A stretch of 64,000 nucleotides of DNA from Mermis nigrescens (taxonomy: Eukaryota > Nematoda > Enoplea > Mermithida > Mermithidae): assembly GCA_036768485.1 (NCBI GenBank), contig JAVLUZ010000143.1, positions 1,669,633-1,733,632 of the forward strand, given 5' to 3'. Below are positions 24,717-59,150 of this stretch, piece by piece. Made by a program: the position numbers and the translations under genes. The notes under the pieces were generated by a model that made no database searches, had not been told where the DNA came from, and saw only the letters and a list, made by a program, of their open reading frames with translations. The first letter of the stretch is position 1, and each line of letters starts with the position of its first letter.

Positions 24717-25194
24717 TCCTCTTCTTTCTTATTTACTGTAGGTCGCTAAATCTCACTGTAGCTACGTAGCAAAGAAGAGTTTTTCAATAGCATTTTTGCG
24801 GCATAATTCATTCGTGTCTTCCAGCAGTACAATCAGCTTACAGATAAAAATCGCGCATTCAGCTTATCCTAAGTTGACACTTTAAACACAATAGACTAAG
24901 ATGTCAAGAAACAACGCAAACCCCCGCTTAGCCCAGTGGTAAAACGTCTGCTTGTCGTCGACGCAACCCGGATTCGATCCCAGAAGCGCACTTACTACAG
25001 TATGTCCCAGCACTGATTAAACGCCCAAAGTGGATTCATGTGGGTGAATTAGTGCGTTAAACATGGATGATTTCCAGCCAATCGCCCTCACTAAGCTGAT
25101 CTGCCGAATTATAATAATTCGTCTTGTTTCGCTTACTGTAGCCTTTGAAAAAATTCACTTAAAAGCTCCCGAATAAATGAAACAGAGTTTATAG
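24716..25194 (+). mobile_element. tRNA-containing MITE/SINE hybrid (copy 2, left-truncated)
   Basis: Matches, inverted, the element at 44250-44800: 'ttctttcttatttactgtag', 'gcggcataattcattcgtg', the tRNA-like block, 'cagcactgattaaa', and the terminus 'gaataaatgaaacagagttt'. The left inverted terminus is missing, so this copy is truncated. Confidence 0.72.
24926..24984 (+). ncRNA. tRNA-derived segment with pol III A and B boxes
   Basis: TAGCCCAGTGG matches the A-box consensus and GGATTCGATCC resembles a B box, about 40 bases apart, as in a tRNA body. No intact cloverleaf with acceptor stem can be drawn, so this is a tRNA-derived promoter region rather than a tRNA gene. The equivalent block in the other copy lies at 44470-44536 on the minus strand. 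Confidence 0.6.
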
Positions 25195-25199
25195 GTAAA

Positions 25200-29027: not shown

Positions 29028-30460
29028 ATGCAAAAGTTGTTTTCTGATCGAGGCCGTCGATCGAAGGTCTATGCTAGACCTGATCGCACTTGGCAACAGC
29101 GCGAAACCCTTCGCCATTTGAACGCTGAATTGGCTGAAAAACGGGATTCGGGCGAGATGAATTGGTTCATCGATCGTAATTCTTATGAGTTGAAGCAGTT
29201 TAAGCGTCCTTTGCCTCCCCCTTAGGGAGTTCACGCCCCTAGTGTTCCTGTTAAAAAGCTCAATTCTAAGAAAATCAATATCAGCTGTGTTTTATTTAAT
29301 GCTAAAAGTTTGCTAAATAAGGTATCTGAATTTCATGCTCTACTTTCTTCAGAACGTTATGATTTAGTGTTCGTCTCTGAGACATGGTTACATGATCATA
29401 TCTCTGATGGCCTTATTTGTCCATATGCAACTTATTCTGTTCACAGATGTGACAGAATTGGCTATAGGGGAGGAGGTGTCACACTCTTTTTCAAGAAGTC
29501 CCTAAAAATCATCAATGTTTCTATTGTGGAAGAATTCTTGTGTCCTGAAGTATTAGTTTGTGATTTTCACTTGTGTAAAAAATCTGTCAGATTCATAATG
29601 TGTTATCGTCCACCCCAATATGACTGAGAAATCGCTAATAAGTTAAGTAAATTATTTGAACATTATGTCGAAAATGCTCAAAATTGTATCCTACTAGGTG
29701 ATTTTAATTTGCCTGATTTGAATTTGAATATTATTTCTGCTTATAGAAACCCTGTGACACAAGTATTTTATGACTGTTTTGTCAATCTTGGTCTTATACA
29801 ATTATGTTTGGACCCAAATAGAGATGAAAATATTCTTGATCTAATTTTGTGTACTTCCAGCAATCTTGTCTTCAATGTATTAACTACTGAACCTTTCTCT
29901 AATAGTGATCATTCTAGCATTGAGTTCAGTTTACCTGCGTCTGTAGTACCCAACCAAACTTCCCTTGAGTATGACTTCAGAAAAGCGGACTATGCATTTA
30001 TCGAGATTTTTTTAGCCTCTATTGATTGGCACCTCTGTTTTACCCATTGCATTAGCATTAACGATTTTTATGCTGTTTTTCTTGACATAATTAATGAGGC
30101 TATACATCGATACGTTCCTTTTAAGCATACTGTGCATAAAAAATCATTGCCAAAGTCGTGTCGTAAATTGCAACTAATTAAAAAGGAACTTTGGGAAAAG
30201 TATAAAAAGAGTCGTTGTCCTGTTATTTTAAACAAGTATAAGAAGATTACTAAAGAAATTAAATTTGCTTTGAAAGATCTTTTCACGAGGGAGGAACGTA
30301 AGCTTTTAAATTCTCGAAATGTAAAAAATTTTTATTCTTTCGTTAATGACCGTTTAAGAATGACTAAGTCAGCTTCAATATTAATGTGTGATGGCAGGAT
30401 GATAGATAATGATTTTGAAAAAGCTAAAGCTTACAATTCTTTTTTGCGAGTAATTTTGTT
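29028..30460 (+). pseudogene. LINE ORF2, endonuclease part (Jockey/CR1-type), truncated
   Basis: An apurinic/apyrimidinic-type endonuclease domain of a non-LTR retrotransposon, which nicks target DNA to prime reverse transcription. Family landmarks appear in order: FNAKSLLNKVSEF, VSETWLHD, GYRGGGV, CYRPPQ, LLGDFNLP and NSDHSSIEF, followed by the basic linker before the reverse transcriptase (RKLQLIKKELWEKYK, KAKAYNSF). Lesions: an in-frame TAG at 29223 just before the domain, a TGA at 29625 inside it, and a one-base shift in a T-run near 30440. The reverse transcriptase is absent because a repeat element joins at 30461. The 5' start is not defined. Family is assigned by motif reading; clade is less certain. 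Confidence 0.85.
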
Positions 30461-30649
30461 CACACCTGGGCAATGCCCCATATCGCCCTCAACCGGCAAT
30501 GGGCCGGACCAATCCTGCAACGGGGCGAAGGGTCTCTGGGATGGGGGCTATGTTTTGTACATGGGCATAGATACATGCTGAAGGTCGATTGACAGTCTAA
30601 ATATGACGACTTGAGAAGCAAATGAGCAAACTACTTATGCTACCTATGT

Positions 30650-32720
30650 ACCAAGTAACCTTTTTCCAAGTGCATGACAACTCACAAGATAACCCTTTTT
30701 GAGAAGCAGTCCACCTTTTTCGGGGACCGACTAATCTATTTATTAGAGCACCAACCTTTTTTGGGAACCGACCAACCTTTTTTAAGTAGCAGACAACCTT
30801 TTTTGCGAACCGACCAACGTTTTAATGGGAGCAGCCAACTTTTTTGGAAACCGACCAATTTTTTTGGGAACCACTCAATTTTTTAAGGGAGCAGCCAACC
30901 TTTTTTGGGAACCAATCAACGTTTTTTTGAGGGAGCAGCCAACCGTTTTTGGGAGCCGACCAACCTTTTGAAGGGAGCATGCAACCTTTCTTGGGGACCG
31001 GCCAACCTGTCTTAGGGAGCAGGCAACTTTTTTCGGGAAACAACCAACCATTTAAGGGAGTAGCCAAGTTTTTTTTGGGAACCACCCAACCTTTTCATGG
31101 AACCAGCCAACCTTTTTTGGGAACCAACTAACCTTTAAAAGGAACAGCCAACTTTTTTTGGGAACCAACCAACCTTTTTTAAGGGACCAGCCAACCTTTT
31201 TTGGGAACCGACCAACCTGTTTAAGGAACCAGCCAACCTTCTTTGAGAACCGACCAACCTTTTTAAGGGAGCAGGCAACCTTTTTTGGGAACCGAACAAC
31301 CTTTTTAAGGGAGCAGGTAAGCTTTTTGGGGACCGACCAACCTGTCTTAGGGAACAGGCAACCTTTTCGGGAGCCAATCAACCATAAGGAGCAGCCATGT
31401 TTTTTGGGGAACCACCCAACCTTTTCATGGAACCAGCCAACCTTTTTTGGGGACCAACCAACCTTTTCATGGAACCAGCCAACCTTTTTTGGGAACCGAC
31501 CAACCTTTTCATGGAACCAGCCAACCTTTTTTGGGGACCAACCAACCTTTTCATGGAACCAGCCAACCTTTTTTGGGAACCGACCAACCTTTATAAGGAA
31601 CCAGCCAACCTTTTTAAGGGACCAGCCAACCTTTCTTGAGAACCAACCAACCTTTTTAAGGGACCAGCCAACCTTTCTTGGGAACCGACCAACCTTTATA
31701 AGGGAGCAGGCAACCTTTTTTGGAAACCAGCCAACCTTTTCATAGAAGCAGCCAACCTTTTTGGGAACCGACCAACCTTTTTAAGGAGAGCACGGACCAA
31801 CCCTTTTTTGGGAACCGACCAACCTTTTTCAGGAACCAGCCAACCTATTTTGGGAGCCAACCAACCTTTTTAAGGAACCAGCCAACCTTTTTGGGAACCG
31901 ACCAACTTTTTAAGGGAGCAGGCAACCTTTTTTGGGAACCAACCAACCTTTTTGGGATTAAGGGACCAGCCAACCTTTTTTGGGAACCGACCAACCTTTT
32001 TAAGGGAGCAGGCAACCTTTTTTGGGAACCAACCAACCTATTTTGGGAGCCAACCAACCTTTTTAAGGAACCAGCCAATCTTTTTGGGAACCGACCAACC
32101 TTTTTAAGGGAGCAGGCCAACCTTTTTTGGGAACCGACCACCCTTTTTCAGGAACCAGCCAACCTATTTTGGGAGCCAACCAACCTTTTTAAGGGACCAG
32201 CCAACCTTTTTTGGGAACCGACCAACCTTTTTAAGGGAGCAGGCAACCTTTTTTTGGGAACCAACCAACCTTTTTCAGGAACCAGCCAACCTATTTTTGG
32301 AGCCAACCAACCTTTTTAAGGAACCAACCAACCTTTTTTGGGAACCGACCAACCTTTTTAAGGAACCAGCCAACCTTTTTCACGAGCCAGACAACCTTTT
32401 CTCAAGAACCAGGCAACCTTGTTTAGAAAGCAGACAACTTTTTATTCTAAAACCAGACTATGTACCATTTTTCAGAAATCAGGGAACCTTTTTCAAGAAC
32501 GAGGGCAACTTTAATGAACCGGGCGACCTTATTTCAGAAAACAGAAAACCTTATTTTCAAAAACCAGGCAACTTTTCCTCATGAGCCAGACAATATTTTC
32601 TTCAAAAATCAGACAACCTTTTTCTGGAACCAGTCAGCCTTTTTCAAGAAGCAGGCAACCTCTTCAGGGATCAGGCAACCTTTTTTCAGAAACCAGATAA
32701 CCTCAAAAAAACAGGTAACA
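30650..32720 (+). repeat. Long 21-bp minisatellite array
   Basis: About 2 kb of alternating 21-bp units of the types AACCTTTTTTGGGAACCGACC and AACCTTTTTAAGGGAGCAGGC, roughly 95 copies, degrading toward the right. Because 21 is divisible by three, several frames stay open for long stretches and appear to encode 7-residue repeats such as PTFFGNR. This is a consequence of the period and not evidence of a gene. Confidence 0.9.
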
Positions 32721-41270: not shown

Positions 41271-43051
41271 CTGTCCGTGCCTCTTAGGGCCAGCGCTACC
41301 GGGTGCCACTAACAAAAAATAAAAAACGAAATTTATCTTATGTTTTGTTTTCATACACGGTCGCGCATAGCAGAAAACAAGGATTGTTTCGTTTTTCGTT
41401 TCGGTCGCGCGTTTTCTAAAACGAAAAGTTATACTGCATTTTCGTTTTTCGTTTCGGTCGCGCGATTCGAAAAACGAAAAACCATACTGTAGATTTTCGT
41501 TTTTTGTTTCGATCGCGCGCTTTTAAAATCAAAAATCCATACTGTAGATTTTCGTTTTTTATTTCGGTCGCGCGATTCGAAAAACGAAAAATCAACTGAA
41601 GGGGGTTTAGGGGCTCGGAAACGGGGTACCCCATTATTCATATGTGGATCTGACCCCGGTTCCGTCAAGGGTTTCTCCGCCCTGGGAGCGGTCCAAAGTG
41701 GCGGAACCGGGGTTGGTTCCCCAAGTAGGGCCCATCAGGGTCAACACCTCCAGCCCCGTTTCTGTCAAATTTTCTCCAACTGATGAGGGGGTTTAGGGGC
41801 TCGGAAACAGGGTACCCCATTATTCGTATGCGAAGGTGACTCCGGTTCCGTCGGGGGTTTATCCGCCCTGGGGAGCGGTCAAAGTGGCGGAACCGGGGTT
41901 CCCCAAGTAGGGCCCATCAGGGTCAACGCCTCCAACACCCGTTTCCGCCAAAATTTCTCCAACTGAAGAGGGGTTTAGGGGCTCGGAAACGGGGTACCAC
42001 ATTATTCATATGTGAATCTGAACCCGGTTCCGTCAGGGGTTTCTCCGCCCTGGGAGCGGTCCAAAGTGGCGGAACCGGGGTTCCCCAAGTAGGGCCCATC
42101 AGGGTCAACACCCCAACCCCGTTTCCGCCAAAATTTCTCCAACTGAAGGGGTTTAGGGGCTCGGAAACGGGGTACCCCATTATTCATATGTGAATCTGAC
42201 CCAGGTTCCGTCGGGGTTTCTCCGCCTGGGGGCAGTCCAAAGTGGCGGAACCTGGGTTCCCAAGTAGGGCCCATCAGGGTCAACGCCTCCTTCAGTTCCG
42301 CCAGAAATTTCCACAACTGAAGGGGGTTTACGGGGCTCGTACCAGGGTACTGAGTTGTTCATTGTGAAGCTGACCCCGATTCCGTCGGGAGTTTCTCCGC
42401 CTTGGGGGCAGTCAAAGTGGCGGAAGCGGGGGTTCCCCAAGTGGGGTCCATCAGGGTCAACACCCCTTCAGTTAGAGAAATTTAGGCGGAAACGGGGATG
42501 AGGGTGTTGACCCTGATGGGCCCTATTTGGGAACCCCGGTTCCGCCACTTTGGACTGCTCCAGGGCGGAGAAACCCCGACGGAACCGGGGTCAGATTCAC
42601 ATATGAATAATGTGGTACCCCGTTTCCGAGCCCCTAAAACCCCCTTCAGTTGTGGAAAATTTGGCGGAAACGGGGTTGAGGTGTTGACCCTGACGGGCCC
42701 TACTTGGGGAACGACCCGGCCATTTTGGACTGCTCCCAGGGCGGAGAAACCGGACGGAAACCCCTGACGGAACCGGGGTCAGAATCACATATGAATAATG
42801 GGGTACCCCGTTTCCGAGCCCTAAATCCCCTTCAGTTGATTTTTCGTTTTTCGAATCGCGCGACCGAAATAAAAACGAAAATCTACAGTATGGTTTTTTG
42901 ATTTTAAAAGCGCGCGACCGAAACAAAAAACGAAATAATCCTTGTTTTCTGCTATGCGCGACCGTGTATGAAAACAAAACATAAGATAAATTTTGTTTTT
43001 TTATTTTTTGTTAGTGGCACCCGGTAGCGCTGGCCCTAAGGGGCACGGACA
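41271..43051. mobile_element. Foldback element with ~180-bp internal repeats
   Basis: Terminal inverted repeats of at least 200 bp: left from TGTCCGTGCC and 'agggccagcgctaccgggtg', right ending in the complement. Both arms then contain 'gcgcgaccgaaa'-type repeats. Inside are five direct units of ~180 bp (starts near 41602, 41785, 41963, 42147, 42322) and, from about 42480, two units in inverse orientation. A 5-bp CTTCT flanks both sides (41266-41270, 43052-43056). Overlapping open frames are by-products of the repeats. Confidence 0.78.
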
Positions 43052-43573: not shown

Positions 43574-43738
43574 CTATAGTCTGTTTCTACACAAATTCAG
43601 TCATAAATTTTAAAATTATCTCCGACAATAAGCTGGCAGATTGCGATTATAGCATTGATCTGATATATAAATATCGTAACCCTTGGCTTACTGTCGAGAA
43701 AATTCTTAGAATTTATGCACGAAGTTACGTGAAACATA
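43574..43738. mobile_element. TIR MITE, family A (copy A3)
   Basis: Begins CTATAGTCTGTTTC and ends 'cgaagttacgtgaaacata', where the LTR begins. The outer bases of its right terminus are missing, suggesting the retrotransposon joined inside or at the end of this MITE. Confidence 0.72.
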
Positions 43739-44178
43739 TGTAAATACAGTGCCTCCCTATGTCTTCAAAGAATCAACATAGGACGGGTGTATTTGCCTTC
43801 GAGACTTACTTAGGTACGTAGGTACTTAGATCTGCACTTAGCGCTGGCCCCGATCGCTTAGCCTGGGATCGCTTCGATCCTTGGACCCTCACAGACCTTA
43901 CGGCTTCGATCCCCTCGGTCCTAATATTGCTGACCGCTTCTCGTCGGGTGATCTCAGCAGCTACGCCCTAAGACCTAAGGCTACCTATGTACCTAGTCTC
44001 GAAATTGCCGCGGAGGTCAGTTGACCTATCTCAAAGCTCAAGTTGATTGTTTAACTTATTTTCAAGATTCGATTCCAACAGAAATGTTTTTTGGTTCCTA
44101 ATGTGTATAGCACAATAAACTTTGGAAACAACAACAACGAGCTCTATACTGATCAATCATCCTTAAAGATTAAATAAT
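43739..44178 (-). repeat. 3' LTR of the Gypsy element
   Basis: Direct repeat of 57261-57684, ~98% identical by eye outside indels. Contains a short hairpin, CCTATGT...ACATAGG, near one end. An AATAAA at 44114 lies on the strand opposite to gag-pol, so it is probably not the element's own poly(A) signal. Confidence 0.85.
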
Positions 44179-44249
44179 TGTAAATGTAGAGCCGCCCTAT
44201 GTCTGCAAGGAATCGGCATAGGACGGATACATTACCCTTTGAGATTGAC
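44179..44249 (-). repeat. Second, diverged LTR-end fragment
   Basis: About 70 bp resembling the first 70 bp of the LTR ('tgtaaat..ag.gccgccctatgtct', 'cataggacgg'), directly abutting the complete LTR and cut on the other side by a MITE. No polypurine tract lies here, as would be expected at a normal internal/3' LTR junction. Confidence 0.65.
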
Positions 44250-44800
44250 CTATAGTCTGTTTCATTTATTCGAGAGCTTTTTAGTCAATTCTTTCAAGGG
44301 CTACAGTAAGCTAAACAAGACGAATTACTGTACTCCAGCAGATCAGCTCAGTGAGGGCGAGTGGTTAGAATTCTTCCATTTTTAATGCACTAATACGCCC
44401 AAATAAATTTGATTTAGGCATTTAATCAGTGCTGGGACATACTACAGTAAGTGCGCTAAACAAAAAGCTATCGGCTAGAATCGAACCCGGGTTGCTTCGA
44501 CTACAAGCAAGAGGTTTTACCACTAAGCTATGCGGCAGTTCGCGGCGTTTCTTAGCATCTTAGTCGATTGTATTTAAAGTGTCGACTCAGGATGTGATGA
44601 ATGCGCGATTTTTATCAGAGTTAATTGATCTGCTGGAAGACGAGAATAAATTATGCCGCAAAAATGTTGTTGAAAAACCCGTCTTTATCACATAGCTATA
44701 GTTAGATCTAGTGACCTACAGTAAATAAGAAAGAAGGGGTTACTGTAAGCTCCGAAAACATTCGCTGAAAAAGCTCTCGGATAAATGAAACAGAGTCTAC
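44250..44800. mobile_element. tRNA-containing MITE/SINE hybrid (copy 1, complete)
   Basis: ~550 bp with inverted ends: CTATAGTCTGTTTCATTTA, 'ttcgagagcttttt' on the left and 'aaaaagctctcggataaatg', 'aaacagagtctac' on the right. The ends resemble family A. On the minus strand at 44536-44470 is a tRNA-like block with A box TAGCTTAGTGG and B box GGTTCGATTCT. It lies inside the 3' part of the Gypsy element. Confidence 0.78.
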
Positions 44801-45515
44801 AACGCTTCTACTACTCGGCACTCTGGCGTTCGCAACGCCTCTACTCTGGCGTCCGCAATGCCTCATCCTGAGCGAACGTGAAAAACGAAAATAAAAGAAC
44901 AAAAGAATAACAAATAGCGATAACAAATAACGGTCAACGCATGACCTCGTTCGCACTCAGGAACCTCTCGAGCAACACTCTGAATGGCGCTAGGTGAAAC
45001 TATATTGTTGCCCGAGTAATGATGAACTCCGGTCTTGGACAGCATAGCATAATATTCGATCATGCTGTCTTTTTAGCCTCCTTCAGTCCCCGGGTAATGA
45101 GAAAAAATTTTGAATTGAAAAAGTTTTAAGATTGGGTATAAATTAACCCCTTGTCCGTTAAAGAGTTAAGATACCATAATAGTAATACCGCTATTGAGCA
45201 AAAATTTAAGACACGGAATGATAAGGCAAGATTATGCTGAGCAAAAATTAAAGACACTGACGAGTTAAAACACGAGGTAATGATAAAACGAGGAATGGCA
45301 AATTATGCGAGATAACGAGGAAGAGAAAAATTAAGCACCGTCAATCAAAAATTACAGCAAGAAAAAATGACAAGAAAAAATTACACAGAAAATAAACAAA
45401 ACGCGATGTCCTGGAATCCACGTCAGGACAAAAAACAAAAAACGACAAAAAAGCTGCTGGTCGAATTCGACGCCTGGCGCAGAGTTCAAAAAGTTCTGTA
45501 CGTCGAACTTGTAAA
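44801..45515 (-). other. 3' untranslated part of the Gypsy element
   Basis: Between the last extra ORF and the MITE/LTR. No long frame and no recognised motif. Confidence 0.5.
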
Positions 45516-47346
45516 TTAATAGCGATCCTGATAATTGGCTTTCGAGCCACGCGGTTTTCCGCGACGACGTTGTCGTTGAAAATAGTCACGATCCGATTCG
45601 GGTTCGCGACGCGTATTTGAATGCTCGCAATATTGATATGGCGAATGCCTACGCCCGTACATATGCTGGCGTAAGCGTTGATGTGGGTCGACTGGACGAC
45701 TATCATCCTCATCATCGTCATCGTCCTCGTAGTCATCCGCGTAACGACGCGGTGTGGGTGGCACCGGAGTGGAAAATTGATCCGGATGAAAACCAAACAA
45801 ATCTTTGCGTGAAGTTTCACGTGGGCGCTGTTGTGGTTGCGTAACAGGCCACGGTTTGGGCAATAGTGGACCCGGTCGAGGTTGTGGTTGATAGACCCCG
45901 ATGGCTGATTGATCTTGACCCAGACGGTGATCGATACGATTGATCCCATTGCTGTCGTTGACGCGATTGCGACCGGCCCTGATGAGCTCCGCGGTTTGAC
46001 TGTGGCTGACGGCTATATTCATAAGGCTGCTGCTGTCGCGGGCGCAACAGATGACCAGCATCCGCCTGTGAATATGCCTCGGAACGCGGACGCGATTCCG
46101 TAAATTGATGCTGCCGCAGTTGGGTCTGCGGTCGTGTGTGAGTCTGTGTGTGTGGTTTTACTGGTGCCTGTGATTGTACATGTGATTGTGAACGGTGATG
46201 CATTTGTGCATATCTTTGCCGGGATGACTGCGGTTCTTGCCGCCCAGATCCCCTTTGGCTTGCACGAGCTCTTAATTTTGCTGTGACTTCCGCGCGAACA
46301 AGCCTTTTGACTCGTTCTTTTTCCAAATTTTTCAACCGACGCAAAGTATGCTCGGATTTTGTGTCATAAAATCTGTTCAATCTTTCCTTATGCTCATCCT
46401 CAGACATATGGCGAATGCCTGAAGTTTCAGCGAGAGAGCCGGCGGCGCGTAATTTTGACGCATGCCTGGGCATCTCAGAAGCAAGATTTGCACGATCGCG
46501 TTGTTCGATCGTCATGCGGGCTCTACGCATTTCAATTTGAGCATCAAGAGATAGATCGACTTTGGGCATTTCAAGGCTCGCCGAGGACCCTGTAGGATCT
46601 TGCAAGGATGCCTGTTGTCTCTCTTTACGAATTTTCTCCAAATCACCTTCGATACGGTGTTTAAGGTAAAAGACGGATTTTTGGCGACCTCAAAAACGGT
46701 CAAACTGAACCGGTACTTCAAGGGCCGGATTGGTTGCTAGCCGAATTTGGCGAATCATGTTGTGCAAAACGGTTGGATTTTCGATTCGCCTGGTCAACTC
46801 CGGGAATTCCGGAAAAGCCTCACTTGGCGAAGGTGTGTACGATTCGCCAAGGAAAGCTACGCGCAACATACGACGTAGCTGTTCCACCATGCGCCAGCCT
46901 ATCGCGGCATTGCCGTAGGCATACGCATAAAAGTGAAACTTTCGGTCTAAAAATTCCAAAAGCACTTTGGCGTGCATGACGTCTATTGTTGAAAAGATCG
47001 TCAAAAATTGATACTCCGATTCGTATTCAGATTGAAACTCTCGGAAGGTATCAAAAATATCGACCATTTGACGCGTCAATATTAGTATTGGCGCTAAATG
47101 ATCAGGCGCCGGGCACATTTGGTGCGGTAAAAATTCTGGTCGAATTTGGTGCGCAATTCCATCAGTCACCACACTCGGTGGTTTGAGGTGTCGGTGAACT
47201 ACCAAGTACTGTAACGGCACTTCGTACAGCATCATTCCGGTTGTGATAAAAAACCGGTTGCGCACAAAAAACTGGTCAGGATAAAATAATCGGTTAAAAA
47301 CGCTCATTTGACTGATAAATCGAGGTGCAGGCGCACGATCAGACAT
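45516..47346 (-). pseudogene. Gypsy element extra ORF4, unknown function
   Basis: Starts with an ATG at 47346 whose first bases overlap the stop of the preceding ORF (ATGTCTGA), suggesting coupled translation. The first ~218 codons (to 46690) look globular, rich in aromatic and hydrophobic residues. An in-frame TGA at 46690-46692 follows, then a charged, probably helical segment (HTLRRLKNLEKERVKRLV), a Gln/Arg/Ser-rich low-complexity stretch and, after a frameshift near 45.9 kb, an acidic run (DDYEDDDDDEDD) and an Arg/Gly-rich tail ending at 45516. The total would be about 600 codons. I recognise no domain. It lacks the signal peptide and membrane anchor expected of an envelope protein. The composition suggests nucleic-acid binding, but that is inference. 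Confidence 0.6.
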
Positions 47347-49673
47347 CAGTCAACGGTTGTGCAAGTGTAGTCCAAACTATGGGACGCGCAGGTGTGTCAG
47401 TCGTGGACGCGTAATGTAAGTGTGCTGCGTAGACCCGGTCGAAATGCACTTGGGCAATTTCGATCAACTGGTCGTACAAACGCGTTCCTTCGACTTCACC
47501 CAAATAAGTGCGCAAATTGTGCAAAACGTCAGGGGCGACGTAGCATGGCGCTTCGCGTGTCATAGTTTCCATCATATGAAAGAAATGTTGGACGTAACGC
47601 GAGCGATTTTGAACTCTCGAGCTTTCTTCTGCAGCTACGCGTTCACGTATGGCTTGTAAGTACGGAGGGACTGCCACCTCCACATTTGGTGGTAAATTTT
47701 GAATATTCTGTGGTTGAATGGTTGCCACAGTAGTCGACACACCCGTCATGGCCATTGGTGCCGTAAAACGAGTTTCAGGTGCCGATGAAGTTGACACGCC
47801 TTGTGGCGCGGATTGGGATGCGATTTGCGTGGACAACGCAGCTTGCTGTGTTTCCTGGGGTGGTAGCGTGCGTTGTGCAGGCGGAGGCAAGCCTATGATA
47901 TCCGACATGATAACGTCAGGGTCGGGTTGACGTTCTGCCAAATCCGGCTGAGAAGTCGGTAAAGGTAGTAACAACCCAAAACCCAAGGGTGCCTGCTGAT
48001 CCGCCGCAAGCGATTGTGGAGCAATCGGTTGCGAAACGGTAGTGGCCCCTTTTCGCGCCAATGCAGCGCGTGTAGTACGCGGTAGGCGACAAATTAGCTT
48101 GCCTTTCGGCCTCAGCATCCGATAATGCCATTACTAAACGTTTTGGAGACAAATTGGGTTCTTCCGAAGATACGGATTGTTCAACTCCAACCATAGGGGA
48201 ATCAAATGGAATATCAGTTTGCGAAGAGATTGCAGAGGCTGGTGTACTTGTACTGGTTGGTTTAGATTTTGGTTCAGTGTCAGGCGCTATAGCCGGGCCC
48301 AACACTATGTCGGCAACGGCCTGCAAACCTTGAACTTTTAAGTCGGGATTATCAAAAACATTAGCATGGGCCAACGCTTCCCTTACAGAGGCAACGGTGG
48401 TGGCTGCGGCTATAGCCACTGGTGGTTGCGGAGCTGGTCCATAGAAGTCTTCTACTGTAACCAATTCACCGCCGTCCAAATCAACGGTGACTTCAGTCGC
48501 CAAACTGGTCGACTGGCCCCGTGATGGCGTACGAGACAACGGCATACGCCGTCTGGTTTTTGGTTCGCTAGCTTTAACTTGCAATTCGTCGCCTTTAAAC
48601 GAAATTGGTATTGGTTTTCTATCCGCGGTAATGCGGTTATTTTGCGAGTAGCCTTCTATCAATATGAAAACATCGATAGTGATCAAGGCATCCATCGCCA
48701 AATAATACTGCATATCACGAGTTAGCGTTAAACTCCACGCCTGCCCAAAATTATCCGGCGCAGTTGGATCGATATACATGTCAAAGAAAAATTCAGCCAA
48801 GCGCTTTAAAGTGTGTGAATGCGCTGTAATATGGTGACGGCGAGTGAATGTTCTCGCTAAAGGCTGTATATCGATAAAATTCGCACTAAACGGATCTTTC
48901 CAATGCCGTTGTTGTCAAATCTCGACATCAGGGATTGCCAAGATTTCTTCGAAAGTTGGACCGTAAACATGAAAATACGCAAGTCTGTCTTGCGTTGGGT
49001 CATAACAGACCATAAATACATTCGGTAGACGCGTTTCAAGCAGCTGATGTAACCCAAACGGAGGTTTTGGGAACTTAGCAATGTCCCAACAGAACACGTG
49101 GCCGTTCGCGCTAGCAACTTGGACATAGCGTACGAATGGGCCATGGAGGTCCTGGTAGGTAGGACATAGCTGCTGAAAACGCAAATCCCAAGTTTTGTAA
49201 CTTCTGCCTTTACGGTCATTCACAAATTCTGAGTCATAGCCCAAAAATAAGGTGCCATTTGTCATGTTTGATGGCTGAATTAAAGCCAAAATAGCCCCAA
49301 AAGACTGCTGGTCGTTGGTGATTAATACAGTCGGTAGAAGTCTCTTCTTTGGCACGCGAAGGGTAGCCAAAGGGAATCTACCAAGACTGTTCTCCCACCA
49401 GAGCTCTTGGTCATTTATACGTCTACGATGATTTTTTGCCTCATGTGATGTTTTATACTCTATCATTTTTGCGCTTAGTGAGTCTAGACCGCTAACACGC
49501 TGGTCATCATTCTGTGGCAGCGGGTCTGGGAAATCCAACCCCCGCTCCAAAGCCATATCAGTCAAAGCCGAACGAAACTCATCTAGGGACGCGGGATCGC
49601 GCCCCTCAAATTTGAATCGGCGACCAGCTGCTGCCAGCAATGCCTCCTTGCTTGGGGTACCTTCAGCAGCCAT
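47339..49673 (-). pseudogene. Gypsy element extra ORF3: DEDDy 3'-5' exonuclease-like domain plus Pro/Ser-rich tail
   Basis: The ATG at 49673 has a strong initiation context (CCATGG) and overlaps the end of integrase by 91 bases in another frame. Residues 143-151 (FLGYDSEFV) match exonuclease motif I, Asp147 and Glu149 being the metal-binding pair. A second strand (YVQVASANGHVFCWDI) and motif II (VFMVCYDPTQDRLAYF, Asp229) follow. After an in-frame TGA at 48915-48917 the same frame continues with motif III, WSLTLTRDMQYYLAMDALI, giving the Y-x3-D of DEDDy enzymes (48704-48690). Order and spacing fit the RNase D/WRN/Exd2 family, which removes nucleotides from 3' ends. A long Pro/Ser/Thr-rich linker follows, then after a frameshift near 48.1 kb a helical C-terminal region. 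This sits where env would be; I know of no Gypsy element with such a domain. The TGA and shift make this copy inactive. Confidence 0.68.
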
Positions 49674-52600
49674 GGGTCTGCAAAAGGGAAAACATTAGAT
49701 AATGGTACGGCATGTGCTGTTTTAGAACCATTTAATAAACGTATAGGCGCGCAGTCCTTAGCTTTTTGCTCCCTGCCCGGTAAGTCCTCAAAACTTATTA
49801 CTACTGCCGGGGCAAGAGGGCGATGTGGTAATTTTACCAAAACAAAATCGCCAGGGACATACGCGTGCTTTTCAACAATTAAATCTGAGTAGGGTAGTTT
49901 GGGCTCAGGCAAAAGTCTATTCCGGTGAACAAGATGAGTGATTAGAGGATTATAGACATAAGCGATTTTCGCAGTTTCAGGAGTAGGTAAGTCAATAATT
50001 TGGTACGGACCAACACGTTTTGGTGATAATTTACCTATTTCAGGTTGAATTACTGAAGTATTATTGAGGTAAACAATATCCGAGAGAGAAAAATTTGTTT
50101 GAGTTACGGATTTATCATATTGAGATTTTTGCTGCTTACGCGCTTGAGCTAAATTTTTAGATGCGATTTTGTGTAGATCTTGTAAAGTCAACTTTAAGTC
50201 AATAACATATTTTTCCGCAACAGATGGTAAATTCGGATTCATCACAAAGTCATTTATGAGTAGAGTGTCTAGGGGAAATGCTGGTTCGCGACCATATAGC
50301 ATTTCAAAAGGTGATATATTAGTTGATGATTGTGGAGTCGCGCGATATGCGAATAACGCGAATGGTAAGAATTGCTCCCAATCATACTGGGATCGCGCGC
50401 TCAGCTTGGACAATCCATCAATTAATGTGCGATTGTAGCGTTCCACTAACCCATCACACTGGGGGTGATATGGGGTTGTAAATATTTTTTGAACGTTTAA
50501 TAGTTTACAGACTTCCGAAATTAGGGTAGATGTAAAATTTGACCCCTGATCTGTCAAAAATTTTTGGGAACTCCATAACGTGGGATAATTTCTCTTAATA
50601 ACAAATTTGCAATTGTTGTTGCTTTTATGTCAGAAACAGCAAAAGCTTCCACGTATTTGGTAAAATAATCCATAAAAACTACAATTTGATCATTTCCGGA
50701 GGGGGATCGCGGCATATGCAAACAATCACACGCAATAAGTTCAAAAGGTGCGGATACTTCGATTGGTTGCAATGGAACAGATGTGGAATTTAATGCGACC
50801 TTACGTTGTAAGCACACATCACAATTCCGACACCACGCGATCACATCATTTTCCATGCGCGGCCACCAATAACGCATTTGAATGGCGGGCAAGATTTTGC
50901 GCGATGAAAAATGAGCTCCAAATATAGAGTCATGAAATTCGGTTAATATAAAACGACGCAAAGATTTGGGTATAACGATTTGATGAACGACAGTTGGTGA
51001 ACGTTTAGGTTGGAATCTACAAAAAAGTACATCGTTTACGAGAAAAAATTCGTCACAATATTTTTTCGTTGTTAAGTCATTCAACGCGATGCGAATTTTA
51101 TGTAATTCGTCATCAGCACGTTGCTCTGCGAGTAAGCGCGCAGGTGTTAGCATTTTGGCTTTCTCAGCATCAGTAAGCAACATGCGTTCGCGAAATGTAG
51201 GTGGTTTATGATTGATAGGGTCGATTGGCGCAGTAGAATTATTATTTTGCGCATTAGGATGATTAATTGATGCATCAGGCGCTTTATCGCGCGATCGGTC
51301 AGGTGGAACCGATTCATCATCTGATTCAGAGTCTTCCGATTCTAAATTTGCGATGTTAACAATATTTTTGCGCTCGAGTTTATATTTGTGCTCTGCATCA
51401 TCATATTTAGGGTGTCGTGAAAGAAGATCAGCTGCGCAGTTATATGCGCAAGGAACATAAACAATATCATATTCATATTCTTGTAATTTGAGACCCCAAC
51501 GGCGTAAACGACTCGATGGGTCTTTAACGTTTACTAGCCAAGTTAGTGCTTGATGATCAGTTTCGACAACAAATTTTTTACCGTAAAGATAGTGTCGATA
51601 ATGCTTGATGTCCCACACTACCGCTAATGCTTCCTTTTCCGAAGTAGCATAGTTACATTTGGCAGAATTTAGCACACGACTAGCGTAGCCAAGAATAAAA
51701 CGACTTTTAGATGGTAAGTGTTTTTGGGTCAAAATAGCACCTAACGCATAATTGCTTGCGTCAGTTGTTAAAATAAATTGGTGCTCATCGTCGAATTTTG
51801 GTAGTTGCAAAATAGGTGGAGATGTAAATGCTTTTTTCAAAAGCTCAAATGCGGTTTGGTGTTCAGCCTTCCAGCGAAATTCGACATCTTTACGAAGAAG
51901 ATGGAATAATGGTTTAGCGATTTTAGCAAGATCTTTAACGAATTTTTTAAACCATTGGACTAAGCCAAGGAATTTCTGCAAAGATTTGACGGTTTTCGGT
52001 ACGGGAAACGAGATTAAATCTGCGACTTTGGACATATCAGGAGCGATGCCCCTTGCACTTATATTGTGGCCAAGAAATTTTACTTCGGCATGAGCAAGAT
52101 GGCATTTATCAGGCTTTACGCGTAAGTTTGCGTTTTTTAGAGCAATAAAGACATTTTCAAGATCTTTTAAATGTTCTTTAAAAGTGCGTGAAAAAATAAT
52201 TATGTCATCGATGTAAACAAGACAAGATTTCCAATTTAGACTTGCGAGCACGAGCTCCATTAGTCTTTGGAAATCTGCTGGCGCATTTTTTAAACCAAAA
52301 GGTAAAACTTCAAATTCATAGTGGCCAACAGGGCATATAAATGCGGTTTTTTCGCGAGATTTATCATCAAGAGGAATTTGCCAGTAACCAGATTTTAAAT
52401 CTAACGTGCTAAAATATGCAGCATTGCCTAAAGTGTCGAAATAATTGTCTAATTGTGGAAGAGGATAAACTTGCGTTTTAGTTACATCATTTAACCGTCG
52501 ATAATCGACGACCGGCCTAAGGGAACCGTCCTTTTTTCCTATGAGAAATAGTGGACTTGCCCATGGGCTGGTTGTAGGTCGAATAATTTTGTCTGCAAGC

Positions 52601-53600
52601 ATTTCATTTATAATCTTTTGCATTGATTCTCTTCTAGAATGTTCGACACGATAAGTTTTTCCAACAACGGGCGGATTATCCCCTGTATCAATATGATGTT
52701 TCATCAAGGGGTACGTCCGAGAGGTTCATTTTTTAGAGCAAAAATTGAGTCGTATTTTAAAGAGAGTTCACGAATTTGTTGCTGTTGTCGAGAATCAACG
52801 GCGAAGCCGTTTAAAGCTTTATTTATTGATGCAAAAAGTTCTGGTGTCCTATCATCAAAGTTTGAGACATGTGACACAACTTCGGCATCAGTGGTTAAAG
52901 AACCTATTATTTCACCAGAGTCAATGCGAATTGGTGCTTTAGAGATGTTACAAACGCGAACAGGTATTATAGGTTGTGAAGCATCGACTATAGACGGAGC
53001 AACAAAAAGTGAAGTTTTTTCCATAAAGTCGGGATTCGGTTCAAATAATGCGAAATCGAAATTGCAAGAGCCATGACTTATATAGCCAGGTGTAATTACT
53101 TTGTGCCTAGGTTGTATTATAACCGGCTCAGGTAACGAAACATGCACACACACAACACCAGAGGTAGTTGTGTTGGATTTCGCGCGAAATTGCAATTTTT
53201 CATGAGATGAGAGTAAATTAATCTTTATGCCGTTTATAAAAGCACAGCGCTCAATAGGATTAACCCACATGAGTGCGGATTCGCAAAAATCATATCCTAA
53301 GAGCATGTCTTCCGGCAAGTGATCAATTATAGATACTGAAGTGGAGATAGATTGTTCCGCGATAGTAAGAGTCATATTTACTTTATAACGAACTACTGCG
53401 GTGATTTCGCCTATGCCATGTACAACTTGTGAGACTTGTTTAGGTGGTAAATTAAAACCTAGCCGCAAAAATGCAGACGTGGTCATCATGGTGACCTGTG
53501 ACCCCATATCAATGAGAGCGGGTACATCAACGCCATGAATTTTAACAAGAATAGTGGGCAAATTTGCAAATTTGTCCCAGCATGGCTTACAATAGGAATA
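49583..53600 (-). pseudogene. pol: Gypsy pol: protease, reverse transcriptase, RNase H, integrase
   Basis: Protease at 53600-53200 has the flap-like and LLGYDF motifs, but its active-site triad reads D-M-G instead of D-T/S-G (IDMGSQVT). The next frame (52707-50554, 717 codons) has RT: LDLKSGYWQ at residues 102-110, VLPFGLKNAPADFQ, and YIDD at 165-168. RNase H follows with TTDAS (Asp316), EKEA and TDHQAL (Asp384). The integrase zinc finger is His592, His599, Cys629 and Cys632, and its first catalytic Asp is 661. After a one-base shift at 50554 in a T-run, TDQGSNF and GLVERYNR complete a DD35E core. Another one-base shift at about 52704, in a C-run, separates protease from RT. In an active copy these proteins mature Gag, copy RNA to DNA and insert it. 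This copy cannot make an intact polyprotein. Confidence 0.93.
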
Positions 53601-56600
53601 TTAGAGTCTAAAGTTTTAGATGGAGGTAAATTGAGTTTTTCATAAGTCGCGAGACGACGCTGTAAACGTTTGTACTCTTTGAGAAATTCTTGCGACGCGA
53701 ATAAATTAGGACGCGCGCTAGCCTCTGGCCCTTTCGCAGTAACCGTGTTTACATCATGAGGAGATGTAAGGGTTGGCTGCGGTGGGGGCGCATTCATGGT
53801 GGGTTGGTTATCTGCGGTATATGTGACATATGGGTGATTAAAATTGTTGTCGCTGCGGTAATTGGAGTTATAATATGTACCACGCTGTTCATTTGGGAAT
53901 TGCACAAAAGGTGTATTTTGTCGCGATTGATTATTATGATGATTATCGTAACGCGAATTTGATAATTGGCATGCAAATTTTGGTAATAATCATTACGATT
54001 TTGCCTATAATTTGGTCGTGCTTGCTTATGTTCAAAGCGGTTATCATTATTCGCATAGTTAGATGAACGATGTTGACTAGAGTTACGATATCGTGACTGA
54101 GATCGATGTCTATTTTGCGAATTTGAACGCGATGGCGAACGATTTTGGCGCGAAAAAGAACGCAACTGGCTGCGATTGCGAGCCATAGAGTTGTTATTTC
54201 GATCGGGCTGGGTATTATAATTAGCATTATTAGACGCTTCTTGTCTCTGACGCGTAAAACATTCCTCATAAATGTGACCTATGCGCTTGCAAAAGGTACA
54301 ATATTTACGAGAGGAATTTTCTGGCTTCTCAGCACGTGACGAGCGATGGAACGTTCTATGACGCGAATGATCTGAGTCATTTTGGTTAGACGCACGAGGA
54401 GTATCTTTAGGTACTACGCTGCCTACAGGAGCAGCTGTTACCAATACATATGGTGTTAATGCTTTTTTCTCCTCAAATTCCTTATTAGCAAATTCAGCGC
54501 TTAGCGCATTGTCCAAAAATTCAGCTAATGATGCTCTAGGCTTTTTGTGATATGCCTCTTTTGAAATATGTGGTAATAAACCTTCTTTTAATTGATGTCA
54601 CATCAAATTATTGAAATGGTGCGAGTCAACTTCAAGATAAGGGTCAGATTTTATTAATTCTTCGCGAAGCAAGAGATAATATGATTTAACCAATTCGTTA
54701 GGCTGCTGTTTATGTGTCAAAAAATGAGTAAAGAGCGCACCGGTGTCCATTGGGCAGAATTCGGCTATTAGCGCTTGTTTAGTTTTCGAATAAGATTGTT
54801 GTATGTCAGCAGGTAACGAACGGTATAAACGTGAAGCATAGGGATCTAGAAATCCAGTCATAAATTTTAGACGATCAGCTTTGTCGATATCATAGGTATC
54901 GGCAAGTGATTTGAATTCGGCAAAATATGCTTTTATATCTGTTTTATCGCCATCAAACAATTTTTTATTTGCAATTGCAATTTGCATTTGTGCCATAAAT
55001 GGTCCGCGATTCAAGGAATCAGCGAGATGTGATTCACCATGCGAGCCTTCAGATGAAGAATCTGAACTATAAAGATTACATCGTCGGCGCTGATCTACTT
55101 TTGTGACGCGAACGACGGCTGCACAGCATACGTGGGCAGCAAGAAAATTCTGGGGGGTCCAAGATTTTTTGAAGGTCAAAAAATGGCCTTAAAAATGGTG
55201 ATATGGCGATAAAAACACCATTTTTCAACGTTTCTCATCAAGCACTATCCATTGGCATCAAAAAATTGCGAAAAAAACGAAAAAAGTTTTCAAAAATTGA
55301 TTTCTGGGGGGGGTCTTTTGATTTCTGGGGGTCTTTTGATTTCTGGGGGGTTCCAGACCCCCCCAGATCCCCCCACGCCCATGTGTGCTGCACAGGCGAT
55401 CATAACTATTAGATGAGCTTTCATCAGAAAATTTTACATGTCTTCTTCTACTAGATGATTCAGGGAGAGGCGCAGATTCGTTTTGCAAATTTGCAGGTTC
55501 GTGATTAATGCCAGATAAATTTATCTCAACAGGTTGCGTTTCGATATTAGAAGAATGTAAAATAGGATTATTAGGTGGTATTTCCACATTCACGGGATTA
55601 GGTACATAATTATTTGGAAAAATTTCTCCTTGAGGTGGAAAATATTGCAGTGGTGGTGGATTTAACTGCTGCTGCAAATTCGTATTTGAAGAATTAGGTA
55701 CAAAGGAAGGCACATTACGATTTAAAGACAGCACCGGCCGAGATCATGACATCTGCAAAATCGGTACTGATGGCTGCAAAATCGTAGGTATATTTTCCGA
55801 AAAACCCGAGTTTTGCACTGATTGCAAACCCATGTTTAAAGGATTTTGTGATAAATTAGATAACTCTGGCGCGCGGTTCGTACAACTTTGAGCGATATTT
55901 TCTGGAATAGCTTCCGAAGGTGAGCATGAATTAGATGCGCTGTTGCCAGTGGACAACAATGAAGATGCACGATGCGTACTTTGCGCACGATTCGCACTTT
56001 GCCCATTAAATTCAGAAAAATTTGCACTATCGATTGAGTGGTTAACGCGCTCAGATGGATTATTTTCAATGCAATTCGAAACTGGTTGGGGTTTAAGCAT
56101 AGTGCTTAGCTCCAGACGCAGTTTACGCATTTCATCCGCATTTTCCTTTTTATCTTGATCAACGCACGTAGAAAGATCCGAAAATTGCAAATGAATAGCT
56201 TGTAACGCTTTTAGAATAAGATCATTAGTCACATTAGCACTAGCACAATCTTCGTCGGCATTTCTGCTATGACTATGATTACTTTCAATGTCAGAATCGG
56301 GATTTTCGCGCTCCGAACTGGTTTCAGGATTATTTGCCGTGTTAAGAGTAGTCGTATTATCAATCATTGTATGATTTGATGAATTATCAATGTTAGGGTC
56401 CGATCTAGTTACCAAACTTTGATTAATGCGTGCTTGCACGGTAGTCAATAACAGTTCATCTTCAGACTGTGTATTGCTGGCGGCATTTAGTGACGTGGGT
56501 AATTGATCATTATTTGCCTTACTAGTTACGTCTTTGTTATTAGTGTCATTACTCGCAGAATTACTCGCGCTATTAGAGTCAACAGGCGCGGTGGGCAATT

Positions 56601-56676
56601 GGCGAGATGAAGTAGGTGGCGTAGAAGGTTTTTTCAATTTAGTGGGCGGTGTCCGCAAAACCTTTTTTCCTGCCAT
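53486..56676 (-). pseudogene. gag: Gypsy gag (capsid and zinc-knuckle nucleocapsid)
   Basis: Starts at ATG 56676 after a ~585-base leader. The N-terminal ~310 codons are Ser/Thr/Asn/Pro-rich. The capsid-like segment (about 55050-54600) has the typical retrotransposon Gag pattern (YFAEFKSLADTY, FMTGFLDPYASRLY, AEFCPM). One CCHC zinc knuckle, CTFCKRIGHIYEEC, lies at about 54300-54259, followed by an Arg/Ser/Asn-rich RNA-binding stretch. Lesions: TGA at 55744, a 261-bp MITE at 55127-55387, a frame change near 55.08 kb, TGA at 54598, and a frameshift near 53.96 kb. The final frame change into protease could be a natural gag-pol shift or damage; it cannot be told apart here. In an intact element Gag forms cytoplasmic particles that package the RNA. 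Confidence 0.88.
55127..55387. mobile_element. hAT-like MITE, family E (copy E1), inside gag
   Basis: 261 bp, CATACGTGGGC to GCCCATGTGTG, with a perfect 8-bp target duplication CTGCACAG (55119-55126, 55388-55395). Internal landmarks match the other E copies ('gcatcaaaaaattgcgaaa', 'atttctgggggg'). It inserted after the retrotransposon and adds 269 bases, which also breaks the reading frame. Confidence 0.9.
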
Positions 56677-57260
56677 TTTTAGGTATCAAAAACGTCGAAA
56701 AATATGACCTTGGGTAAAAGAAATTTCAGTACGTCGAAATTTTGCCCAAAATAAATGTTTCGAATTTGGCCTTTGTCGTTCCAAAAAACAGGTTTTTTCA
56801 CGTGAATAGTATTTGCTTACGTGAAGTAAGATATACCTGACGTGAAATGATTGAAAACAGGTAGGACTAAGCCTAAGGTACAAGAAAGTGTACGTGGTTA
56901 GAAAAAGAGGTAGGTGACAACTTTTGTCACCTAGGTTTTTACCGAGAGAGAAAAATGATGAATCGTCGCCTGAGGGTCGACGTTTATAGAAAAATGCGAG
57001 CGTGTTAGCTGCCTTTGTCGATAGAGATCCGACGGAAATAGAAAAAATAACGATGACTTTACCACAATACACAAAATCTTTACCACGGACGCTTACTTAA
57101 ATTGCGCACTGCCACGATCGCGGTCAATACAACAACAAGGGTGAACAAAATGTTACACATATCTTAGATGGCCAAAATAATGATTTTTGGATCGAAAAAT
57201 AATTTTACGATGATTGATCAGTTCGGCTGTAGCTAGCAGCCTTAAAGAGGGACTATCCAG
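56677..57260 (-). other. 5' leader of the Gypsy element with candidate primer-binding site
   Basis: Between LTR and gag ATG. Immediately inside the LTR the minus strand reads CTGGATAGTCCCTCTTTAAG. The TGG one base from the LTR end is where a tRNA primer-binding site is expected, but I cannot match it to a specific tRNA. An overlapping 128-codon frame has no recognisable content. Confidence 0.45.
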
Positions 57261-57684
57261 TGTAAATACAGTGCCGCCCTATGTCTTCAAAGAATCAACA
57301 TAGGACGGGTGTATTTGCCTTCGAGACTTACTTAGGTACGTAGGTACTTAGATCTGCACTTAGCGCTGGCCCCGATCGCTTAGCCTGGGATCGCTTCGAT
57401 CCTTGGACCCTCACAGACCTTACGGCTTTGATCCCCTTGGTCCTAATATTGCTGACCGCTTCTCGTCGGGTGATCTCAGCAGCTACGCCCTAAGACCTAA
57501 GGCTACCTACCTAGTCTCGGAATTGCCGCGGAGGTCAGTTGACCTATCTCAAAGCTCAAGTATTTTCATAGATTCGATTCCAACAGAAATGTTTTTTGGT
57601 TCCTAATGTGTATAGCACAATAAACTTTGGAAGCAACAACAACGAGCTCTATACTGATCAATCATCCTTAAAGATTGAATAATG
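57261..57684 (-). repeat. 5' LTR of the Gypsy element
   Basis: Direct repeat of 43739-44178. Two of the differences between the LTRs are CpG to TpG/CpA-type changes. Lacks a 4-bp 'tgta'-type insertion and a ~13-base stretch present in the other copy. Confidence 0.85.
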
Positions 57685-57689
57685 TTTTT

Positions 57690-59150
57690 GATCGATTTTA
57701 GGTTTAAGAAAAGAATTAAGACTTTCGAACAAAAGTACCAATCATATGGAATTTACCTATCCGTCCACTCTGAGAGTCGAAATCCTCGACGTTGGAAACT
57801 CCGACCTAACCCTCGGTATATCCGAAACCCCTGGGTAGGTTTTTTCTAATTTATTTCAATGTAGAATACACGACCAAGTTGCCGGACAACAAAATAACAC
57901 AAAAGAAAAACAAAACGCTCTCCACTATACAAGCGAGCAACTCCCCACGAGACTAACTACGATGGCCTCATAGGACCATTACAGTAAAATAAACAAACGT
58001 CAAAATAGCATAATACTGGAACTCTTTTAAATCACAACGAATGTTCTAGATTAATACAAGCGGTATGCATGAAACGATCACTATTATCATATACTTAACT
58101 CTATGTTACCGGACAAGTATCTTATTGTTTTTATTATTGAAAATTGGGGAAAATGTGGGAAGACCGAAGGCATAGCCCACAGTACACTATCGTAGATAGC
58201 TACTAGTATTGGCTATGTAGTGGCTACCGCGAACTGCTAAGGCAAGTTCGCCAAAACGTGTAACTCTCGTAGTTACACATACCATAGTGCTTTCTTCAGT
58301 ATGTGGCGCGTCAAACAAATTGCTGCAATAATCTAAACGGTAAAATATTCCACTACCGTAGTAAGCCGTGCGATAACGGGCCTTTTGGAATGGAACAGAC
58401 TATAGGATATAAAGAGGTGTCCAAATATTCGCACCAACATAATTTCGCTTAAAGGCTTTCTGCCAACCTTATTTGCTGTATCATATATAATTTCATGGTC
58501 GCCACTCGCCACCATAGGTGGGCCTTTTTTGGCCCACTCTGTAGGATAGAGTGCGAAATAGGGTTGCTATAGTTAACGATTTTAAAACGAAAAATATCGT
58601 TAACGACGTGGTTTTGGGTCGTTGTTTACGAAACGATATCTTTTTTCGGGAGTCGTCGTCAACAAAAACGATATTAATTTTGGTAAATAATATCGTGAAA
58701 ATAAGGTTAGTATTTCTGTACATGTGTACATTTGATCCTGTTGCCGATCCTCGGAGGCGTTTTACCCACACGTATGTATATGTACATTAGGCGTGGGTAG
58801 TTGGGAGCTCAAGTATGGGACATCTGTGTTCTGAGGGAGCCAAAAAATTTAAAAAATGCTTTTAAGGCTAAAAACCAATGGGTATCACTACCTACACGTC
58901 TAAAACACTGTTATTCAACGTTTCAGACACTTTTTTCGAGAAAACAAAAACAAAAAATATTGAAAAAGTATGTAAAAATTGAGTGAATTGAAAAGAAATA
59001 TAGTCAACAGATGTGTATATGGCGCAAAGCGCCGAAAATTAGTGACTTCTGAGCCAAAAATGAGCTAGAAAAACGTATAAAAGGTCACACTTTTCACAAT
59101 ATTCACAAAAAAGCGACAACTCAAGAGGTTGCTCGCAGCGCAGTCACACA
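57690..59150. other. No gene recognised; small repeats
   Basis: 58376-58402 carries a family A-like terminus ('ggaacagactatagg'). 58513-58541 is a small E-type hairpin (CATAGGTGGGCC..GGCCCACTCTG). 58560-58715 has AT-rich 'aacgatatt' motifs that recur at 60825-60940. No gene seen. Confidence 0.4.

Follow-up and report, generated by a model that had tools for sequence, protein, structure and literature searches.

The window analysed here, a stretch of 64,000 nucleotides from the nematode Mermis nigrescens (contig JAVLUZ010000143.1, positions 1,669,633 to 1,733,632), carries on its minus strand a decayed long terminal repeat (LTR) retrotransposon of the Ty3/Gypsy type. Downstream of its integrase lies a third open reading frame (ORF3) which, judged from its motifs and a structural model of a related copy, almost certainly encodes a WRN/RNase D-type DEDDy 3'-5' exonuclease fold with five active-site residues. 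Element coordinates here and below are window positions, and the insertion comprises the following features in addition to ORF3.

43739..58277, minus strand: LTR-retrotransposon insertion (LTR ends from comparison with relatives and with each other)
57261..58277, minus strand: 5' LTR, about 1.0 kb, TG...CA (from comparison with relatives)
57249..57260, minus strand: probable primer-binding site (CTGGATAGTCCC), from sequence, immediately 3' of the 5' LTR
53797..56676, minus strand: gag, in broken pieces, with a weak Retrotrans_gag match (3.8e-05) and a CCHC knuckle
52704..53600, minus strand: protease (Pfam aspartyl protease, 6.8e-11)
50554..52725, minus strand: reverse transcriptase, RNase H and integrase zinc-binding domain (Pfam RVT_1, 1.3e-36; RT_RNaseH, 4.1e-34; Integrase_H2C2, 1.9e-19)
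49583..50629, minus strand: integrase core and C-terminal part (Pfam rve, 0.00019, under the curated cut-off)
49674..49698, minus strand: splice-acceptor-like tract, CTAATGTTTTCCCTTTTGCAG/ACCC, directly 5' of the ORF3 ATG
43739..44178, minus strand: 3' LTR remnant (3' part, 440 bases), which aligns with the 5' LTR at 94% identity and 19 gap positions

The LTRs of TG...CA form, the target duplication, the probable primer-binding site and the order gag, protease, reverse transcriptase, RNase H, integrase are all present and identify the element as Ty3/Gypsy-type, an assignment in which the gag and integrase-core matches of this decayed copy are weak. The 4-bp target duplication TATG stands on both flanks (58278-58281 and 43735-43738, minus-strand reading), and the 5' LTR starts with TGTAAC and ends with TTTACA. 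A full LTR pair was recovered in two of three relatives (98.2% identity over 1,064 aligned bases in one, 97.4% over 1,047 in the other); the LTR comparison in the third yielded just a 228-base match. In the window copy the initial ~0.6 kb of the 3' LTR is missing, and an unrelated insertion (44245-44799) together with a short, diverged fragment of an LTR end stands in its place. Comparison with the three relatives revealed this replacement and ruled out a second LTR, belonging to another element, just inside the 3' LTR. The 44245-44799 repeat has inverted ends (GTCTGTTTCATTTATCCGAGAGC...), occurs again at 24718-25199, and holds a stretch that resembles a tRNA by eye, although ARAGORN called no tRNA. 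Decay of the window copy is also evident in its coding region: a ~0.25-kb repeat splits gag at about 55119-55414, the integrase core lies in a different frame from the reverse transcriptase/RNase H piece so that pol is spread over three frames, and ORF3 contains stops and frame changes. No dUTPase was detected at E ≤ 1 in a Pfam scan of the protease and reverse transcriptase frames of this copy.

On the minus strand ORF3 extends from 49673 down to about 45516 and can be followed through five pieces.

48915..49673, minus strand: piece 1, with an N-terminal extension and the first two exonuclease motifs (I and II), closed by the stop TGA 48915-48917
47916..48914, minus strand: piece 2, in the frame of piece 1, motif III (QYYLAMDAL) and then a proline/serine/threonine-rich linker
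47339..48130, minus strand: piece 3, in another frame, codons ~532-774 of a relative
45817..47349, minus strand: piece 4, in another frame, codons ~775-1248 of a relative, with an in-frame stop at 46690-46692
45516..45923, minus strand: piece 5, arginine/glutamine-rich C-terminus, codons ~1249-1383 of a relative

A preliminary description, made from the letters of the stretch, had taken 47339-49673 as a single ORF bearing all three motifs. The single ORF does not hold, because TGA 48915-48917 separates motif III from motifs I and II; the motifs themselves are real, and counting in relatives gives the number proposed for the motif II residue, D229. In all, the window ORF3 has suffered two in-frame stops and three frame changes, and piece 2 loses register with a relative's ORF3 beyond about 48045. 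Programmed readthrough of the TGA was abandoned as an explanation because 37 of 48 copies sampled in the host genome are open through codon 420, and a separate ORF4 at 46690-47349 was ruled out, since this segment corresponds to the interior of ORF3 in a relative. In unbroken copies ORF3 has about 1,385 amino acids, of which 984–986 follow codon 400 in five natural copies; this part is first proline/serine/threonine-rich, then ordinary in composition, and then arginine/glutamine-rich over the final ~280 residues, and two copies scanned against Pfam gave no match. A simple hydropathy scan of the copies examined, which is a crude test, found nothing resembling a membrane-spanning segment (the highest Kyte-Doolittle means over 19 residues were 1.3–1.4 for five C-terminal pieces, while one N-terminal part reached 1.68, at the motif III helix). 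With neither such a segment nor a Pfam match, the predicted ORF3 protein is therefore not an env glycoprotein by these tests.

Relatives were sought in the host assembly (523,963,438 bases in 860 contigs). A search with ORF3 piece 1 gave 1,711 first-look candidates, and all 150 that were scored matched at 83–100% identity, so that the window family has at least 150 scored copies; ten had a stop within the match, and 28 had an open frame of 1,371–1,421 amino acids. From these a sample of 48 loci was drawn, made up of the window locus, the seven loci that ranked best after it, and 40 chosen by hand at about equal intervals along the ranking. Integrase lay upstream of ORF3 at every one of the 48. 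When the search was started from pol instead, 41 of the best 62 among 5,422 candidates (window included) had a matching ORF3 at the right distance, and ORF3 was also present in all eight that were examined of the other 21; the resulting 49 of 49 pol copies are among the closest relatives of the window copy, with 13 of the best 62 outside the count. Integrase and ORF3 thus travel together in the copies examined, a point that the preliminary description had proposed to check. Further Gypsy-like groups in this genome (L051-L070) also carry DEDDy ORFs 3' of integrase, with open frames of about 285–550 amino acids in the copies read.

The catalytic residues of these ORFs are conserved. D-x-E of motif I, D of motif II and Y-x3-D of motif III are invariant in 18 sequences, ten from the window family and eight from other families, and all eight other-family domains aligned retain the five residues. 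Across the 48 loci, the DEDDy residues were kept in 47/47, 47/47, 47/47, 39/40 and 39/40 of the readable copies, and the sole readable copy without the full set is out of frame. Together with the invariant upstream integrase, this upholds the proposal that a Gypsy-type element carries a DEDDy 3'-5' exonuclease at the site of env. For the domain (codons 117-346), 37 unbroken copies gave a mean nonsynonymous divergence (dN) of 0.036 and a synonymous divergence (dS) of 0.631, a ratio of 0.06, which, coming from best-scoring, unbroken copies, is biased towards low values and to that extent weakens the case; the contrast with the flanks (0.24 for codons 1-109 and 0.22 for codons 347-381) is drawn from the same copies. 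Among the three ORF3 parts measured, constraint is strongest in the exonuclease domain, and in 29 of these copies integrase gave 0.04 against 0.06 for the domain. The domain is therefore under strong purifying selection, nearly as tight as that on integrase, the outcome that the preliminary description had set as a check for D-E-D-Y-D, and this constraint suggests that the enzyme is needed for the spread of the element. In the same 29 copies, the proportion of synonymous differences was higher for ORF3 codons 121-360 (0.25–0.37) than for integrase (0.11–0.27), which may reflect exchange of ORF3 between subfamilies. Trees of exonuclease and integrase built over few taxa did not discriminate between common inheritance and such exchange.

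By itself, the window copy is weak evidence for an exonuclease. Its ORF3 pieces matched no Pfam exonuclease family, piece 1 matched nothing in the PDB and the second half matched one entry there, EXD2, at E 0.02. Protein databases gave no hit at E ≤ 1e-3, whether queried with piece 1 or with seven aligned ORFs of other families, scans of viral contigs with the reverse transcriptase and with piece 2 revealed no relative, and a single-sequence fold of piece 1 was uninformative (predicted local distance difference test score, pLDDT, 38). By contrast, PF01612 was matched at E ≤ 1 by 16 of the 18 members of the set designated A2 (best 5.4e-11), and fold searches with a model of the ORF3 domain found a DEDD exonuclease fold, matching WRN, Rrp6, EXD2 and Egalitarian. 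The structural comparison proposed in the preliminary description thus recovered a DnaQ-like fold. Several points nevertheless weigh against this reading. The template modelling scores, normalised to the query, are moderate (0.61 for WRN and 0.57 for Rrp6), the EXD2 rows superpose poorly (root-mean-square deviation about 18), and stretch 126-146 of the model is below pLDDT 50. Furthermore, a profile of the ten window-family copies alone retrieved no PDB entry at E up to 1, and the domain of the modelled copy, L005, scored 13.6 bits against PF01612, where the cut-off is 23.6; homology consequently rests on the intermediate families and the model. Finally, domains of this fold can act in RNA binding.

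ORF3 appears to have its own route of expression. As had been noted, its start at 49673 overlaps the integrase piece, and the sequence CAG/ACCCATG occurs at this point in 48/48 loci, preceded by a pyrimidine tract and a CTAAT-like sequence (CTAAT in 43, CTGAT in 2, CTGAC in 2 and CTAAC in 1). Six ORFs of other families were inspected: L052 has an acceptor directly before its ATG, and in L055 and L064 a TAG stands about 12 and 8 bases upstream of the ATG, whereas L060, L062 and L065 lack an obvious acceptor immediately ahead of the first ATG, which counts against the explanation given below. From this sequence pattern, ORF3 is probably translated from a spliced subgenomic RNA by way of the putative acceptor. 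Spliced messages are given as a typical expression route for LTR-retrotransposon ORF3s in PMC5408684.

Based on these data, we consider it likely that ORF3 is a large auxiliary protein with an active DEDDy exonuclease. The genomic RNA would supply gag-pol and the spliced RNA ORF3. The domain is probably an active, metal-dependent exonuclease, a predicted activity in which 3' ends would be trimmed with two metal ions, as in the cellular relatives WRN, RNase D and Rrp6. In the two least certain steps, ORF3 would join the element's ribonucleoprotein, perhaps through its arginine/glutamine-rich tail, and would trim 3' ends of element RNA or complementary DNA (cDNA) during replication. The element's own RNA or cDNA is, tentatively, the substrate we favour, ahead of host small RNAs and then of RNA binding without cutting.

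The exonuclease could instead counter host small-RNA silencing, trimming or destroying the 3' ends of small RNAs or their precursors like a corrupted MUT-7 or Nibbler. This is unlikely, as the best fold matches are scattered over all branches of the DEDD family with no preference for Nibbler. Still less likely is its fuller form, in which selection would keep the exonuclease active as a counter-defence that erodes the 3' ends of nematode small RNAs or precursors and is shared by several Gypsy-like families; if true, the element would bring its own silencing suppressor. An RNA-binding adaptor resembling the exonuclease-like domain of Egalitarian, carrying or packaging element RNA without cutting it, is similarly doubtful. 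In its favour, Egalitarian ranked fourth in the profile search (1.9e-9) and appeared in the fold searches, where one entry is, by its title, a complex with mRNA of the I-factor, a retrotransposon; against an adaptor, the five catalytic residues are intact in the eight other-family domains aligned and the exonuclease domain is the most constrained ORF3 part measured. It is very improbable that ORF3 holds a passenger fragment of a host exonuclease, captured once and free of selection: the ORF3 region is richer in G+C (47–49%) than pol (39%), but the low dN/dS of the domain, the presence of ORF3 in every pol copy examined and the related ORFs 3' of integrase in other elements speak against it. 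Least credible of all is an env-like entry protein with chance exonuclease-like motifs, since, although env genes are likewise placed 3' of integrase with a splice acceptor, residue conservation, the profile and fold matches and the lack of a membrane-spanning-like stretch in the copies examined contradict it.

The arthropod setting suggested in the preliminary description is not supported. The host is a nematode; its assembly gave no candidates for the arthropod cuticle family PF00379 and 34 matches above cut-off for the TTR-52 family (PF01060), which is typical of nematodes. No control genome matched either family, so that the cuticle result in particular is weak evidence. Elsewhere in the window lie a large fold-back with many internal ~180-base repeats (41272-43051; arms up to 140 bases, 94% complementary), a long array of 21-base units open in several frames (30714-32584) and the endonuclease part of an element resembling a long interspersed nuclear element (29628-30581; Pfam Exo_endo_phos_2, 4.3e-6, slightly under cut-off). 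The host assembly also contains COX1 copies that read TGA as tryptophan, and a near-complete COX1 with adjoining mitochondrial-looking frames lies within a 48.8-Mb scaffold (L082, G000:C61:36162539-36163888), being either a nuclear copy or a misassembly.

The ORF3 domain has its fold and active-site pattern in common with WRN, Rrp6, RNase D, Nibbler, EXD2 and Egalitarian. These are cellular proteins whose flanking domains differ from those of ORF3, and identity to them is 10–21% over the aligned parts among the matches listed. Parallels among retroelements come from rotifers, here compared through published descriptions. The statement that no Gypsy element with a 3'-5' exonuclease was known fails because DEDDy ORF3s had already been reported in the LTR retrotransposons Juno and Vesta (Rodriguez et al. 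2017, PMC5408684), with mention in later reviews (PMC6431247, PMC5718144). Like the nematode element, Juno and Vesta carry an RNase D-like DEDDy ORF downstream of pol, occur as several families per genome, and have DEDDy ORFs described as free of coiled-coil and transmembrane domains (PMC5408684). By contrast, Juno, Vesta and TelKA have a dUTPase between protease and reverse transcriptase, absent from the window-copy pol, and the rotifer motif is given as DEDD changed to DEED (PMC5408684), where the nematode element has D-E-D-Y-D. The nematode host and the ~1,385-amino-acid ORF3 with its long additional C-terminal part are further differences. Rotifer Terminons/Athena likewise use a DEDDy exonuclease as a retroelement accessory function, but with a Penelope-like reverse transcriptase described as endonuclease-deficient (PMC6431247, PMC5408684), whereas the nematode element has LTRs and integrase. 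No earlier report of a DEDDy-ORF3 retrotransposon from nematodes was found in the open-licence PMC literature. The present element adds to what is known what appears to be a second animal phylum for this arrangement, an ORF3 of this length, a pol without dUTPase and measured purifying selection on the exonuclease. The 2017 report left undecided whether exonuclease ORFs are of importance to their elements (PMC5408684); with the nematode family, the purpose of an LTR retrotransposon's own 3'-5' exonuclease becomes a testable question.
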